Source of the DNA: Sphingobacteriales bacterium | Lineage (GTDB): Bacteria > Bacteroidota > Bacteroidia > Chitinophagales > CAIOSU01 | Assembly (NCBI GenBank): GCA_027483645.1 | Contig: JAIXUD010000009.1 | Coordinates: 180,814-244,813 of the forward strand | Length of the DNA: 64,000 nucleotides | Direction: 5' to 3' | Shown here: positions 1,383 through 57,563 of the stretch, piece after piece | How positions within the stretch are numbered: the first letter of the stretch is position 1 | Layout of the letters: each line of letters opens with the position of its first letter | Translations under genes and position numbers: made by a program | Notes under the pieces: generated by a model | Seen by the model: only the letters and a program-made list of their open reading frames with translations | Databases searched by the model: none | Told to the model about the DNA's origin: nothing

Positions 1383-1415
1383 CCAATCAACCAATAACCA
1401 ATTAACCAATAACTA
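1383..1415. repeat. 7/8-bp degenerate tandem tract, CCAATAA dialect
   Basis: CCAAT recurs with spacings 8, 7, 8 in this interval of the divergent helicase/groES spacer (units CCAATCAA, CCAATAA, CCAATTAA, CCAATAA). It belongs to the same dialect as the tracts at 1831-1974, 7787-7817, 21124-21214 and 22989-23072. No gene is visible in the rest of this 375-bp spacer apart from the two promoter boxes. Confidence 0.7.
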
Positions 1416-1502
1416 AACCCTGCCACCTTTTCACCCAAAATGTCAAATTTCCCCTCCCCAACTGCCAACTTGCCAGTAAATAGCACTTGGCACAACTAAT
1501 GC

Positions 1503-1510
1503 TATCTTTG
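1503..1510 (+). promoter_or_regulatory. -7 promoter box of groES-groEL
   Basis: TATCTTTG matches TAnnTTTG and lies 46 bp before the groES ATG. A TTGG lies about 13 bp upstream, closer than the usual -33 spacing, so the -33 element is uncertain. No CIRCE heat-shock inverted repeat is seen between here and groES. Confidence 0.6.
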
Positions 1511-1556
1511 CAGCACAGTAAAAAAACACCTTTATAACCCTAAAAGTCACATTTAT

Positions 1557-1832
1557 ATGTCAGTAAACATTAAACCCCTTGCAGACCGCGTGCTGGTGAA
1601 AGCCGACGCTGCTGAAGAAACCACCAAGAGTGGCCTATTTATCCCTGATACCGCCAAAGAGAAGCCTATGCGTGGCGTAGTTATCGCCGTAGGAAACGGT
1701 AAAGTGGATGAGCCCATCACTGTAAAAGTTGGCGACAAAGTATTGTATGGCAAATATGCCGGCACTGAGTTGAGCGTAGAAGGCGAAGAGTACCTTATTA
1801 TGCGCGAAAGCGATATCTATGCAATACTATAG
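1557..1832 (+). CDS. groES: Co-chaperonin GroES (Hsp10)
   Basis: The 10-kDa lid of the GroEL folding chamber; seven copies cap the GroEL ring in the cytoplasm. The 91-residue product has normal length. It opens with the family signature [12 protein letters not shown] and contains the mobile-loop region ([13 protein letters not shown]) that docks on GroEL and the [13 protein letters not shown] core strand. It is followed 143 bp later by groEL in the same orientation. The intervening spacer is filled by a heptad tract that reaches to within 1 bp of the groEL start. Confidence 0.98.
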
Positions 1833-1974
1833 TTACTAGTTATTGGTTGATTGGTTATTGGTAAAAACAATGAGCTACCAATAACTTATAACCAGTAACC
1901 CATAACCAATTCCCAATAACTAATAACGAATATCGAAATCCCAATAACCATTAACCAATAACAAATAACTAAGC
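1831..1974. repeat. Inverted pair of heptad tracts filling the groES-groEL spacer
   Basis: The left arm at 1831-1862 reads AGTTACT, AGTTATT, GGTTGATT, GGTTATT. The right arm is an uninterrupted run of fourteen 7-bp units from 1877 to 1974 (ACCAATA, ACTTATA, ACCAGTA, ACCCATA, ACCAATT, CCCAATA, ACTAATA and so on). Its last unit ends 1 bp before the groEL ATG. The left arm is roughly the reverse complement of the right, so the transcript between the two cistrons can fold back. The left arm starts on the last bases of groES. Confidence 0.85.
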
Positions 1975-1975
1975 A

Positions 1976-54780: not shown

Positions 54781-54791
54781 GCAATATGGAT

Positions 54792-54820
54792 ACAAGGTAA
54801 AAATAGGATTTTTACCTTGT
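54792..54820 (-). terminator. Terminator hairpin of the aspartate aminotransferase gene
   Basis: ACAAGGTAAAAA and TTTTTACCTTGT are perfect complements over 12 bp around TAGGA, 10 bp past the aminotransferase stop. The U-run lies in the stem itself and there is no further T-run. Confidence 0.75.
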
Positions 54821-54830
54821 AGGCGCGTTG

Positions 54831-56024
54831 TTAATTCAATTTCGCCAACGCCGCCTTAATCCTCGCGCAGGCCTCGGTCAATTGTTTTTCGCTGGCGGCA
54901 TAGCTTATACGCACACACTCGGGTGAACCGAATGCAGCACCCGAAACCAACGATACTAACCCCTCAGCCAATAAATAGAGCGCTAAATCATCGGCATCTT
55001 TTATCGTTTCGCCATTGTAAGATTTGCCAAAGTAAGCACTTACATCGGGGAACAGGTAGAAAGCCCCTGGCGGCGTATTTACCTTTAATCCGGGTATTTC
55101 GCTCAATAAGGCAATCACCATATCGCGGCGATGGTGAAACTGGTCGCGCATATCCCAAGTAGGCTGCATGTCGCCGTTCAAGGCTGCCTCAGCGGCCTTT
55201 TGGGCGATGCTGCACGTAGCACTAGTAAACTGGCCTTGTAACTTATCGCAAGCCTTGGCAATCCACAGCGGGGCGCCAATGTAACCTACGCGCCAGCCCG
55301 TCATAGCAAAACCTTTTGCAAAACCATTTACGGTAATGGTTTGGTTGAACACTTCTGGGAACTGGGCAATGCTTTCGTGCTTGCCATCGTAATTGATGTA
55401 CTCGTAGATTTCGTCGGAAACAATGTAGATTTCCGGATACTTCGCCAATACTTTAGCCAAACTTTGCAATTCTTCCTTGCTATACACAGAGCCCGAAGGG
55501 TTGCTCGGTGAACTGAATATTATCATACGCGTTTTAGGCGTAATGGCAGCTTCCAATTGCTCTGCGGTAATCTTAAAGTCTTGCTCAATGTTGGTAAACA
55601 CGTTCACCATCTTGCCCTCGGCCAACTCTACCATAGCGGCATAGCTCACCCAAAACGGTGCAGGAACTATCACTTCATCGCCAGGGTTTACAAGGCACAA
55701 CACTACATTAATGAGGCTCTGCTTGGCACCCGTAGAAACTACTATCTGCTCAGGAGAATATTCCAACCCATTATCCCGTTTAAACTTGGCTGCAATGGCT
55801 TTGCGCAACTCAATGGTACCTGGCACGGCGGTATAGAAAGTAAAACCTTCGTCGATGGCCTTTTTTGCCGCTTCACGGATGTGCGTTGGCGTTACAAAAT
55901 CGGGCTCACCCAGGCTTAGGCTGATGATATCGTGGCCTTGAGCCTTAAGTTCGCGGCCCATTTGGGCCATTTTGATAGTTGCAGATTCGTGAAGGTTGGC
56001 TATCCTGTCTGATAAATGGGGCAT
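54831..56024 (-). CDS. Aspartate aminotransferase-like PLP enzyme (class I, AspC type)
   Basis: Pyridoxal-phosphate aminotransferase of 397 residues that moves the amino group between aspartate (or a related amino acid) and 2-oxoglutarate. Landmarks are SLGEPDFVTPTHIREAA near 37, the substrate/PLP region STGAKQSL near 93, SSPSNPSGSVYSKEEL near 170, VSDEIYEYINYDG, the PLP Lys in NGFAKGFAMTGWRVGY near 235-250, and the C-terminal FGSPECVRISYAAS with the carboxylate-binding Arg. A -7-like TAATTTCG lies at 56042-56049 on the minus strand. Confidence 0.93.
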   Translation of the reverse strand: MPHLSDRIANLHESATIKMAQMGRELKAQGHDIISLSLGEPDFVTPTHIREAAKKAIDEGFTFYTAVPGTIELRKAIAAKFKRDNGLEYSPEQIVVSTGAKQSLINVVLCLVNPGDEVIVPAPFWVSYAAMVELAEGKMVNVFTNIEQDFKITAEQLEAAITPKTRMIIFSSPSNPSGSVYSKEELQSLAKVLAKYPEIYIVSDEIYEYINYDGKHESIAQFPEVFNQTITVNGFAKGFAMTGWRVGYIGAPLWIAKACDKLQGQFTSATCSIAQKAAEAALNGDMQPTWDMRDQFHHRRDMVIALLSEIPGLKVNTPPGAFYLFPDVSAYFGKSYNGETIKDADDLALYLLAEGLVSLVSGAAFGSPECVRISYAASEKQLTEACARIKAALAKLN

Positions 56025-56159
56025 ACCACTATTATTTTGTGCGAAATTAGGAATTGCATAGCATAAAACACCTTTTATTTTTACGGTTGCAATATTCTCG
56101 TCCTATCGTGTTATTTTTATGGGAGCACTATTACTAAATCTTGAAAACTACTACCTAGC

Positions 56160-57431
56160 ATGACTCTTAAAAAGAAGCTTGTAGCAGGAACTGCTGTATT
56201 GTTTACCGTGGCGTTGGTTTACGTTTTTTATCCTTCGTCAACTATTGATACCGAGGTAGATGCCATGCGCATTGAAGCGGAAAAGGAGGAGCAAGTTGAA
56301 TTTCTATTCGGTATACAGAAGAATGAGTATGATGTGGTTCAAGGTAAAGTAAAGCCTAACCAAAACCTAGCTAGTATATTAACAGGCAACGACTTAAATG
56401 CTGGAAACATCTTAAACCTTTCGGCCAAGTACAGCGATGTATTTGATACCCGCTACATGAAATTCGATAGGCCCTATACCATCATGGCACTAGAAGGTGA
56501 CACCAATAAGAGCGTGGCTTACCTTATCTATGAGAAGAGCAACGTGGAGTTTATTGTATACGATTTGTTGAAGGACTCTGTATACAAAGGCCAAAAGGAA
56601 GTAACCATTGAGCGCAAGTACATATCTGGTACCATCAACTCATCATTATCAGAAACTTTGCAAAACGCTGGTGTTGATGTAGGCTTGGCTTACAACATGG
56701 CCAGCATTTACGATTGTACTATCGACTTCTACAAATTGCAGAAGGGCGATTTCTTTAAAGTAATCTATACCGAGAAGTTGGTTGAAGGCAAATCGGTTGG
56801 TGTTGACCGAATTGAAGCTATTGAGTTTACGCACAATAGCAAACCCTTTTACGCCTTCTACTTTGAGCAGGATAGTGTAGGTGCTTACTACGACGATAAA
56901 GCAGAGAGCATGAAACGTGCCTTCTTAAAAGCACCGTTGAAGTACGGCTATCGCATCAGCTCTAAGTACAACAAGAACCGCCTGCACCCAGTATTGAAGG
57001 TGAACCGCCCACACTTGGGTACCGATTATGCAGCAGCGCATGGCACCCCTATTATAACTGTAGGAGATGGCGTAGTATTGGAAGCTAGCTTTACCAAAGG
57101 CAATGGCAACTATGTAAAAATCAAGCATAATGGTACCTACACTACCCAATACCTGCACATGAGCAAGTTTGCCAGCGGTATGAAAAAGGGCAAACGCGTG
57201 AGCCAAGGCGACGTGATTGGATATGTAGGCAGCACTGGCCTAGCTACTGGCCCGCACGTTTGTTTCCGTTTCTGGAAAGATGGCGTACAAGTTGATCCTT
57301 TCAAAGTAATGCCTCCACCAGCCGAGCCTATCGCTAAGAAAAACTTGGATGAATACAACGCCAAAGTAGAAACCCTTAAGAAAGAACTGGAAGGTATCAA
57401 GAGCCCCGAGTTGACGGCTAGTCTTAAATAG
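56160..57431 (+). CDS. M23-family peptidoglycan metallopeptidase with HxC motif
   Basis: 423-residue cell-wall endopeptidase anchored by one N-terminal transmembrane segment (about 5-24). After a long non-catalytic domain with OapA/LysM-like character (residues 45-260), the M23 domain follows: HLGTD at about 284-288 (His and Asp zinc ligands), catalytic-region YLHMSKF near 328, and GPHVCFRFW near 363-371. The last motif is normally HxH. Here the second His, a zinc ligand in LytM, is Cys, which could still bind zinc. Followed by a strong terminator. Confidence 0.9.
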   Translation: MTLKKKLVAGTAVLFTVALVYVFYPSSTIDTEVDAMRIEAEKEEQVEFLFGIQKNEYDVVQGKVKPNQNLASILTGNDLNAGNILNLSAKYSDVFDTRYMKFDRPYTIMALEGDTNKSVAYLIYEKSNVEFIVYDLLKDSVYKGQKEVTIERKYISGTINSSLSETLQNAGVDVGLAYNMASIYDCTIDFYKLQKGDFFKVIYTEKLVEGKSVGVDRIEAIEFTHNSKPFYAFYFEQDSVGAYYDDKAESMKRAFLKAPLKYGYRISSKYNKNRLHPVLKVNRPHLGTDYAAAHGTPIITVGDGVVLEASFTKGNGNYVKIKHNGTYTTQYLHMSKFASGMKKGKRVSQGDVIGYVGSTGLATGPHVCFRFWKDGVQVDPFKVMPPPAEPIAKKNLDEYNAKVETLKKELEGIKSPELTASLK

Positions 57432-57563
57432 TCCACAGACAGCGGACGACGGACCACGGTTTACATAGTATCTCAAAAAAAACAAAGGAAGAAAAGGTCG
57501 AATGGCAATGCCATTCGACCTTTTTTTAAGCAACTGTAGTCCGTCGTCTGTCGTCCGTGGAGC
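57430..57563. repeat. Inverted heptad pair flanking a terminator
   Basis: The left arm AGTCCAC, AGACAGC, GGACGAC, GGACCAC, GGTTTAC (57430-57464) and the right arm GTAGTCC, GTCGTCT, GTCGTCC, GTGGAGC (57536-57563) are in 7-bp register and roughly complementary. They enclose the hairpin at 57492-57527. Confidence 0.8.
57492..57527 (+). terminator. Intrinsic terminator of the M23 peptidase gene
   Basis: A perfect 15-bp stem AAAAGGTCGAATGGC/GCCATTCGACCTTTT around AAT, followed by TTT. Confidence 0.93.

Follow-up and report, generated by a model that had tools for sequence, protein, structure and literature searches.

Polar heptad arrays in the intergenic spacers of a Bacteroidota genus: possible arms of small inverted dispersed repeats

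Introduction

The STRR heptanucleotide repeats of heterocystous cyanobacteria are 7-bp tandem units that lie between genes and have fixed words. The tracts described here share the 7-bp intergenic unit with them and are set apart, by description only, in having no fixed word.

Heptamer direct repeats with the word TAACTGA occur in Beggiatoaceae, Cyanobacteria and five Bacteroidetes (PMC4679880). In the sections of that report considered here, they resemble our tracts as intergenic 7-bp tandem units with other heptamers mixed in (Elizabethkingia, Gramella, Microcystis) and mostly 7-nt indels between sister Cyanothece, and a role in rearrangement was suggested. In contrast to our tracts, they have a single fixed word and in the main genome run mostly forward to the start codon; TAACTGA was found in none of the 147 tract consensus words of our sample. 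The first-pass annotation of this DNA knew of no such system in Bacteroidota. Heptamer repeats had in fact been described there, whereas the polar inverted-arm anatomy is absent from the sections of PMC4679880 considered. Heptanucleotide long simple sequence repeats (LSSRs; Mrazek et al., 2007, as relayed in part of PMC4679880) also have a unit of 7 and slip in 7-nt steps. Unlike them, the arms described here are degenerate, have a preferred length, edges and polarity, and are copied across loci.

In Porphyromonas gingivalis, also Bacteroidota, the BrickBuilt minisatellite lies inside a MITE, and according to the part of the report used here its intergenic tandem repeats are linked to inverted ends; its unit is 23 bp in 19 copies with leader and tail subunits, and the repeats form the body and not the arms (PMC4596501). 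The closest anatomy is that of REPINs and BIMEs, the REP doublets associated with RAYT transposases, which as far as described in the sections considered share with our tracts arms of 20–40 bp, inverted doublets around a spacer, extragenic position, high copy number and several families per genome (PMC3116915, PMC3733652). Unlike REPINs and BIMEs, most arms here are arrays of heptads that by themselves do not fold, the interiors are mostly unshared, and in two Y1_Tnp copies inspected no RAYT was seen to be tied to the arms.

Short intergenic repeats are usually taken for slippage noise. Here the tracts have period, length and polarity in common but not the word, and whole arm pairs differ between sister species, so that the question of why heptamers dominate long bacterial repeats becomes testable in one genus.

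Lag-7 Tracts in Intergenic Spacers

The window is the whole stretch of 64,000 nucleotides analysed. In its 42 spacers that measure 20 bp or more (7,648 bases), lag-7 identity was 0.313 against 0.265 in 100 dinucleotide shuffles (z = 9.0), lags 14, 21 and 28 gave z = 6.2, 4.0 and 3.1, and 17 of the 20 lag-7 segments were intergenic. The features of the window are as follows:

1382..1416, minus strand: family A arm (TAACCAA on the plus strand), upstream of the ORF at 1557
1830..1862, plus strand: family A arm (TTGGTTA/TTGGTTGA), beginning inside the stop codon that ends at 1832
1881..1972, minus strand: family A arm or arms in two adjoining tracts; the ORF at 1976 is 3 bp away
7784..7817, plus strand: family A arm; the minus-strand ORF ending at 7738 has its 5' end 45 bp away
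21122..21161, plus strand: family A left arm of an inverted pair, 1 bp past the stop at 21120
21183..21214, minus strand: family A right arm; it adjoins the minus-strand ORF whose end is at 21215
22988..23022, plus strand: family A left arm
23043..23069, minus strand: family A right arm
24486..24518, unstranded: unclassified lag-7 tract, CTAATTC-like
30337..30376, plus strand: family C left arm (GACACAA) of a pair enclosing a 192-bp interior
30559..30566, plus strand: TTGAAGCA boundary motif, on the inner side of the right C arm at its edge
30569..30599, minus strand: family C right arm
32406..32443, plus strand: period-8 family A arm (GGTTGATT), directly 3' of a stop codon
32524..32555, minus strand: period-8 family A right arm; the ORF at 32561 lies 5 bp away
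35503..35534, plus strand: family B arm (GTTACGA), 5 bp past a stop
35607..35639, minus strand: family D arm (GTATCAA) at the right-hand end of the same spacer
40046..40077, unstranded: family E arm (GTCCATC/GTCCATG); the ORF at 40081 is 3 bp away
40567..40585, plus strand: family C left arm
40623..40653, minus strand: family C right arm
43084..43122, unstranded: family E tract (CCATCGA/CCATGGA)
45658..45695, plus strand: family C arm, 5 bp past the stop of a menB-like ORF
45699..45726, plus strand: family B arm, abutting the C arm 5 bp out of register
48266..48297, minus strand: family C arm, followed 13 bp on by the ORF at 48311
57438..57459, unstranded: family E-like left arm (GGACGAC), a weaker tract (score 8–9)
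57536..57558, unstranded: family E-like right arm (GTCCGTC)

Between the last two arms lies an inverted repeat followed by a T run, by eye a putative terminator.

A sample of 864 kb from the same genome, made up of the window and 40 stretches of 20 kb, in which our own gene caller defined 654 genes and 499 spacers, gave z = 22.2 at lag 7 in the spacers (20 shuffles). It held 147 intergenic lag-7 tracts in 125 kb of spacer, against 2.0 in shuffled spacers (mean of 3) and 6 in coding sequence, and the excess over dinucleotide shuffles that had been proposed is borne out. The proposed comparison of lags 7 and 8 with shuffles was strong at lag 7, but other lags were raised as well, namely lags 3 (z = 11.5), 15 (9.5) and 21 (15.6) and, at z of about 6–7, lags 4, 6, 8 and 12. 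Part of the signal at lags other than 7 is probably due to coding sequence missed by the gene caller, and tract counts are the cleaner measure. A strict period of 7, as first claimed, does not hold, since a minority of tracts have period 8 (43 against 2 in shuffles), among them 32406..32443 in the window.

The repeat words vary from locus to locus, as the annotation had said, although three words that it listed separately (CGTCCAT, CCATGGA and GGACGAC) fall into one single-linkage cluster, which also chains in GTACAAT. It had further described one word changing into another without loss of register at 45658–45734. The distance from the first G of the GACACAA part (45659) to that of the GTTGCGG part (45699) is 40 bp, or 5 modulo 7, and lag-7 identity drops to 10/21 at the junction; register is lost, and two separate arms abut there. 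Tracts are about equally frequent in codirectional (67/232), divergent (21/80) and convergent (19/53) spacers. Their reported closeness to genes was confirmed: in spacers of at least 80 bp, a called gene lay no more than 5 bp away from 43 of 137 tracts, a share of 0.31 where random placement predicts 0.08.

Families, Edges and Dispersal of the Arms

Three of the families, B, C and D, occur as dispersed arms about 31 bp long, or 4.5 heptads, and their edge phases are concentrated. Tract lengths peak at 31–32 bp (46 of 216 lag-7 tracts). The outer edge takes one phase in 13/19 D and 17/28 C tracts and two neighbouring phases in 33/41 B tracts, whereas family A, as in the free-running arrays of LSSRs, varies in length (20–76) with scattered edge phases and fits fixed ends poorly. 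Family F, with 6 tracts, is too rare for judging edges. In seed-aligned copies information falls away within about 1–3 bases of the edge, a drop that the seed length itself favours. The unit order of family D is fixed, being GTATCAA GTAGTGA GTATCAA GTATCAA in most of 24 seed hits.

In REPINs and BIMEs the individual arm is palindromic; here single arms fold little better than shuffles (134 arms, mean z −0.5). Among the consensus arms, A, C and D do not fold, B folds weakly (−2.4) and F folds (−8.5), and by eye no GTAG or CGTC tag, a hallmark of REPINs and BIMEs, was seen in them. The motif TTGAAGCA recurs at inner boundaries; the own-genome sample has 20 intergenic copies, of which 14 by eye adjoin a tract.

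Arm-sized segments (about 25–50 bp, mostly at 85–100% identity) recur at tens of places among the matches listed, in all five genomes of the genus. The interiors behave differently: same-family doublets have 21 interiors of 25 bp or longer, and 15 of these have no match elsewhere in 2.2 Mb of G000, G002 and G003, whereas arms recur widely. The other six have pieces of 29–91 bp in common with other loci, and some at least of these pieces belong to other dispersed repeats. Pieces of the 192-bp interior at 30337..30599 recur at other loci. A 20-mer from a B..B interior at 264 kb of contig C1 in G003 was found (≤3 mismatches) only in G003 and G001, apart from one 3-mismatch match in G000. Among the matches listed, several at loci outside the 2.2-Mb set span a left arm, a 16-bp interior and the next arm (query 30–105) at 74–76%. 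The most highly repeated segments outside tracts are other hairpin repeats, which occur in tract-free spacers too.

Polarity and Inverted Doublets

The arms have a direction relative to the spacer. With orientation defined after looking at examples, and with 155 of 265 tracts classed and the 110 unclassifiable ones dropped, arms within 20 bp of a gene point inward, into the spacer, in 87 of 90 classifiable cases (3 outward), at 5' and 3' gene ends alike (binomial p = 2e-22, arms sharing one spacer not being independent). At more than 20 bp the polarity is only 42 to 23.

The claim that tracts often come as inverted pairs also stood: among 26 same-family pairs within one spacer, 22 are W..rc(W), 2 rc..W, 1 W..W and 1 rc..rc. 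The same family lies on both edges in 20/30 of the W..rc pairs (expected 26%). The two arms of a doublet match no more closely than arms taken from different doublets do (mean rank 0.53, p = 0.66, n = 22), and therefore nothing shows that a single copying event gave both. All 22 same-family doublets shorter than 330 bp fold more stably than shuffles (mean z −6.3), because their arms pair inverted. Mixed-word doublets keep the polarity nonetheless, as in the B..D pair at 35503..35639, and barely fold (mean z −1.0; 2/9 below −2).

Comparison of Sister Species

Between G002 and G003, five orthologous spacers carry different arm words; four of these are unalignable, and at the fifth a D..D doublet in one genome stands in the same position as B..B in the other. 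At the spacer orthologous to the 21122..21161 site, both genomes have AATTTGAA-type arms in place of family A. In well-aligned sister spacers, 14 of the 25 indels that fall within tracts have a length divisible by 7; outside tracts this is true of 5 of 155, one of them 84 bp long. Mismatch is 5.2% in arms and 4.7% in the rest of the spacer. Because the arms are no better conserved than the remaining spacer, the heptad-reading protein suggested as a cause in the first-pass annotation is without support. Replaced spacers are in weak excess among tract spacers (8/49 against 9/152, p = 0.036), as are synteny breaks (5/8 against 8/39, p = 0.028; with G002, 4/6 against 10/32, p = 0.17).

Survey Beyond the Genus and Candidate Enzymes

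Around menB, 80 loci were surveyed, with record titles from Bacteroidota and one titled Desulfovibrionaceae. Seventeen loci held 32 intergenic lag-7 tracts, against 2 in one shuffle round, some of them low-complexity and one poly-G; genes held 17 lag-7 tracts, and lag 8 gave 16 against 3. The words differ from those of the genus, so the earlier statement that the period is constant and the sequence is not holds within the genus and more widely. Among 14 tract pairs listed, those with a word distance of at most 2 comprise 7 inverted and 1 direct, and two of the seven have near-palindromic words.

A repeat-templating reverse transcriptase, another suggested cause, is not supported, since RVT_1 (E ≤ 0.001) was not found in four of the five genus genomes (G000, G001, G003 and G004; one in G002), the drafts being 78–98% complete. 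Ku was found in 0/7 genomes. Y1_Tnp genes are present in 7/7, including two family mates in which samples of 77 and 100 kb yielded no arms. Of two Y1_Tnp copies inspected in G000, one lies inside a B..B spacer with its own terminal repeats and the other is unflanked by arms. No autonomous partner element for the arms was found.

Discussion

We consider the chances about even that the tracts represent the arms of very small extragenic repeats dispersed through the genome, namely REPIN/BIME-like inverted doublets whose arms are heptad arrays. One arm would be a polar sequence of ~31 bp, or 4.5 degenerate heptads, and each of a few families (A–F) would have its own word. Copying within the genome would happen arm by arm and would typically yield an inverted doublet, W-interior-rc(W), which occupies the spacer right up to the genes on either side. 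By analogy with REPINs, which are thought to spread in this way, we infer a trans-acting transposition- or recombination-like process and not point-by-point evolution. Doublets would move or be exchanged as units, through whole replacement by a doublet of another family, nesting or loss of one arm, and would be located at some rearrangement junctions. After insertion, the arms would drift at the spacer rate and gain or lose whole heptads via slippage, family A being furthest along. Arm exchange, if true, would rewrite spacers between close relatives. A broader proposal, which we hold to be less likely than not, is an unnamed, phylum-wide class of miniature DNA in Bacteroidota in which polar heptad arms bound spacers with interchangeable words and conserved period, arm length, polarity and inverted layout, a putative dedicated enzyme copying arms to both spacer edges.

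Plain slippage, also named in the first-pass annotation, would expand short words by a mechanism that favours 7 (and 8) nt, the tracts being confined to non-genic DNA only because 7 breaks the frame. The 7-bp-step indels are real, the lengths and phases of family A vary, and the part of PMC4679880 on Mrazek et al. (2007) reports that in most of the genomes studied long simple repeats are more often heptanucleotides than any other class, and relates this to the footprint of a polymerase as an idea. Slippage nevertheless cannot carry an arm to another locus, and the concentrated edges, the 31–32 bp mode, the fixed D unit order, the near-identical arms at tens of other loci among the matches listed, the single polarity of each word near genes and the inverted pairs all speak against it; we regard it as a secondary process and as an unlikely full account. 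That the doublets are functional RNA or DNA sites (hairpin terminators, processing sites or protein-binding arrays that a heptad-reading protein may recognize) would agree with the stable folding of same-family doublets. That folding is a consequence of inverted pairing, however; mixed-word doublets keep the polarity while barely folding, and occurrence nearly independent of gene orientation, drift as fast as the remaining spacer and the lack of matching within doublets make such sites rather improbable as the explanation.

Two further accounts bear on the doublet as a whole. If a broken spacer were resected to the gene edges, both 3' ends extended inward on the same heptad template and the ends joined with filler, inward polarity at both edges regardless of gene orientation and the same word on each side would follow, and the abutment to start and stop codons, the mostly unshared interiors, the whole-spacer differences and the weak synteny-break excess would be accounted for. 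The results for RVT_1 and Ku given above count against this repair, and fixed arm edges and unit order would require a dedicated template, which leaves it improbable in our judgement. Ordinary MITEs or cassettes that end in terminal inverted repeats, their transposase being encoded at another genomic site, would share the polarity, inverted arms, common ends and inner boundary motif, and the six interiors with shared pieces and the matches that cross an interior fit them. Against such miniature elements stand the mostly unshared interiors beside widely recurring arms, the hairpin nature of the most highly repeated segments outside tracts, the absence by eye of target-site duplications in the paired spacers inspected and the missing autonomous partner, and we rate them as very unlikely. 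The tracts also break assemblies: contigs C1, C3 and C10 of the genome analysed begin or end in such arrays.

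Heptad Tracts in the Intergenic Spacers

The window belongs to a genome of 4.27 Mb in 23 contigs (G000), and the nearest proteins of its menB-like protein are from Bacteroidota. The first-pass annotation had noted that many intergenic tracts share a 7-bp period. A lag-7 signal above dinucleotide-shuffled controls was confirmed in the window, where autocorrelation of the spacers gave an excess of z=9.0 with harmonics and 17 of 20 lag-7 segments are intergenic. It was confirmed again in a larger sample, 864 kb with 499 spacers, made up of the window and 40 stretches of 20 kb from elsewhere in its genome. 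With a purpose-made, non-standard codon-based gene caller and cut-offs of our own (tract score ≥9, word fit 0.72), the sample yielded 147 intergenic lag-7 tracts, where dinucleotide shuffles gave 2.0 and CDS gave 6, which rejects chance as the source of the signal. Plain autocorrelation is also raised at lags 3, 4, 6, 8, 12, 15 and 21; the tract counts are thus the cleaner test. Lags 4, 5, 10, 11 and 13 gave at most 9 tracts each, in spacers and genes alike, tracts at lags 3, 6, 9 and 12 are chiefly inside genes, and lag 8 gave 43 tracts against 2 in shuffles. A change of word at 45658-45734 without loss of register did not hold up on direct check.

Most of the 147 tracts fall in a few word families.

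Arm families by heptad word, given on the reading strand of the word (W)
Family A: TTGGTTA; 8-bp forms such as GGTTGATT
Family B: GTTACGA/GTTGCGG
Family C: GACACAA
Family D: GTATCAA
Family E: GTCCATG/GGACGAC-like
Family F: GTACAAT (only 6 tracts)

Three contigs of this genome, C1 (end), C3 (start) and C10 (start), break off in long, perfectly repeated tracts whose word is ACCAATA, GACACAA or GTTGATTG; counts of the longest arrays are therefore probably too low.

Polarity, Pairing and Folding

Family and strand could be assigned to 155 of 265 tracts from the samples of G000 and of a second genus member, G003, and the other 110 were dropped. Among the classified tracts, arms within 20 bp of a called gene nearly all point into the spacer (87 inward, 3 outward), and those farther away do so in 42 cases versus 23. 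Inward polarity is present at both 5' and 3' gene ends and is therefore not set by transcription, which was rejected as its cause. Tracts are about equally frequent in codirectional, divergent and convergent spacers.

Independently of the gene calls, same-family pairs in one spacer are mostly inverted doublets, with 22 arranged as W..rc(W) and 4 otherwise; pairs of different families comprise 10 W..rc and 5 rc..rc. Of 30 W..rc pairs, 20 have the same family at both spacer edges, where 26% would be expected. All 22 same-family doublets fold strongly because their arms pair as W..rc(W), while mixed-family doublets hardly fold (2/9 below z -2) and single arms on average do not (mean z -0.5, n=134). 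The two arms of one spacer are no more similar to each other than arms from different spacers (mean rank 0.53, n=22), which weakens snap-back copying and compensatory pairing of the arms as explanations.

Arm Anatomy and Dispersal

The tracts are mostly defined arms rather than loose arrays. The modal length is 31–32 bp, or 4.5 heptads; the G000 and G003 samples together have 216 lag-7 tracts, of which 46 are this long. When outer edges were placed without seeds, 13/19 D and 17/28 C tracts fell at one phase and 33/41 B tracts at two neighbouring phases. In seed-aligned copies, where the fixed seed length favours such a result, information falls off within about 1–3 bases of the edge in families D, C and B, and the order of unit variants in D is nearly fixed. 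Family A, in which length and phase vary, is the exception and is closer to an ordinary slippage array.

Two whole cassettes were used as queries against the five genus genomes. Each gave a full-length self-match, and the remaining matches listed are mostly arm-sized, at tens of places at least. For the second cassette, the matches listed also include its joined double arm, the right edge of the orthologous spacer in G001 and probably also in G000, and several that span the left arm, the 16-bp interior and the next arm at 74–76%. Interiors of ≥25 bp were compared for 21 same-family doublets. Fifteen of them match nothing else in the sampled sequence of G000, G002 and G003, which argues against a simple MITE with a shared interior in most doublets; the other 6 share partial pieces with other loci. 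C, D and E arms repeatedly carry the motif TTGAAGCA at their inner edge, and 14 of its 20 intergenic copies in the own-genome sample adjoin a tract (counted by eye).

CACTAAG/CACAAAG units (AACCACGAAGTGCACTAAG...), whose period is not 7, form a second dispersed repeat at window positions 35498-35670 and 36999-37052 and in several sample spacers. A dispersed hairpin repeat, GGCAGCTCCCCTCCTT...AAGGAGGGGTTGGGGGTGG, lies in long spacers at 4451-5735 and 41871-43132. In another element, seen in three sampled stretches (L111 884-1207, L122 5889-5967 and L127 447-542), units of period 8, AGAATTTA, come after the head GTCTGAATCAGAATT.

Comparison of Sister Species

The genomes G002 and G003 are sisters: their sampled sequence gives 319 reciprocal best hits, with a median amino-acid identity of 98%. 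Both share the arm words. From 289 conserved neighbour pairs, 88 with spacers <30 bp were excluded; in 49 of the remaining 201, one or both genomes have a tract in the spacer, and 41 of these 49 are alignable. In the better-aligned spacers (score >0.65, length difference <150), mismatch is 5.2% in tracts versus 4.7% elsewhere, and indels are multiples of 7 in 14 of 25 cases in tracts versus 5 of 155 elsewhere.

Spacers that do not align are more frequent with a tract (8/49) than without (9/152, p=0.036). Four of these eight have a differing arm set (G003 C1 176697, 217156, 362925; C5 39879), and in three the difference reaches the flanking start or stop codon. A third arrangement is found in G001 at the C5 site, where the right edge bears the same D arm as in G002. 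The clearest case is a fifth site, G003:C1 ~264,132, where a B..B doublet stands against D..D in G002 and the two genomes share their sequence again to the right. The B form is shared by G003 and G001; at the orthologous edges, G004 retains the D right arm and G000 has, by eye, a palindrome-interrupted D left arm, so D is probably older than B here. In the more distant G000, orthologous spacers may retain an inverted pair with another word, as at window 21121-21214 versus AATTTGAA-type arms. Neighbour pairs of G000 that are broken in G003 are richer in tracts (5/8 versus 8/39, p=0.028); the same comparison with G002 was not significant (4/6 versus 10/32).

The sisters also differ in perfect 20–21 bp palindromes of the CCTGCCTGCCGGCAGGCAGG type and in a 29-bp piece that carries a GCCTCGCCTTGGGCGAGG hairpin; these lie within or next to heptad tracts, and where one genome has them the other does not.

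Sites of the palindromes and the 29-bp piece
G003 C1: 359313, with G002 counterpart
G003 C5: 34704 and 53345, with G002 counterparts

Origin of the Arms

We give an even chance to dispersed arms in REPIN-like doublets that would be copied in trans to dispersed sites, a step we infer. Slippage acts on the arms and does not by itself make them. The doublets resemble REPINs (PMC3116915, PMC3733652) in their short polar arms, inverted doublets, extragenic position and several families per genome, whereas the arms here lack the palindromic tagged form and a link to the REPIN transposase is no more than possible. End-capping of breaks would explain well both the polarity and the unshared interiors, but it lacks an enzyme. 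RVT_1 was found in G002 and in none of the other four genus genomes, which speaks against reverse-transcriptase templating of the arms through RVT_1. Ku was found in none of the seven genomes searched, which speaks against Ku end joining.

The proposal that the arms are repeats of Y1_Tnp genes is weakened by locus L113, where two family B arms flank a Y1_Tnp element (18037-18883) that has terminal repeats of its own. The layout in G002 is similar, except that the left arm is worn. Another insertion, of ~0.7–1.1 kb at G002:C44:101326-102444, contains a Y1_Tnp gene as well as palindromes of its own; the same spacer in G003 lacks it.

Distribution and Earlier Reports

PMC4679880, which also summarises Mrazek 2007, reports TAACTGA heptamers, some Bacteroidetes spacers with mixed heptamers and 7-nt indels in Cyanothece, and PMC4596501 describes a P. 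gingivalis MITE containing a 23-bp minisatellite. No earlier description of polar heptad doublets was found in the literature searched, which was largely open-access.

The ACCAATA 21-mer (1 mismatch allowed) is present in all four other genus members and, outside these and the own genome, in 2 of 35 relatives with a single match each. The genus arms are absent from samples of two family mates (77 and 100 kb), which gave no lag-7 tract (G005) and two AT-only tracts (G006). A survey of 80 menB loci, 1.33 Mb from records of which almost all are titled Bacteroidota, gave 32 intergenic lag-7 tracts against 2 in shuffles and 17 in genes. They occur at 17 loci with words unlike those of the genus, some of low complexity, in agreement with the earlier proposal that the period is constant while the word varies. 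In the 14 pairs listed, paired tracts with a word distance of ≤2 are inverted in 7 cases and direct in 1. Among 395 phylum genomes, the C word was found in the own genome only, and the B word in 16, the own included, versus 4 for the backward control pattern. In one of these B-word genomes (L228) the W..rc layout is as in the genus.
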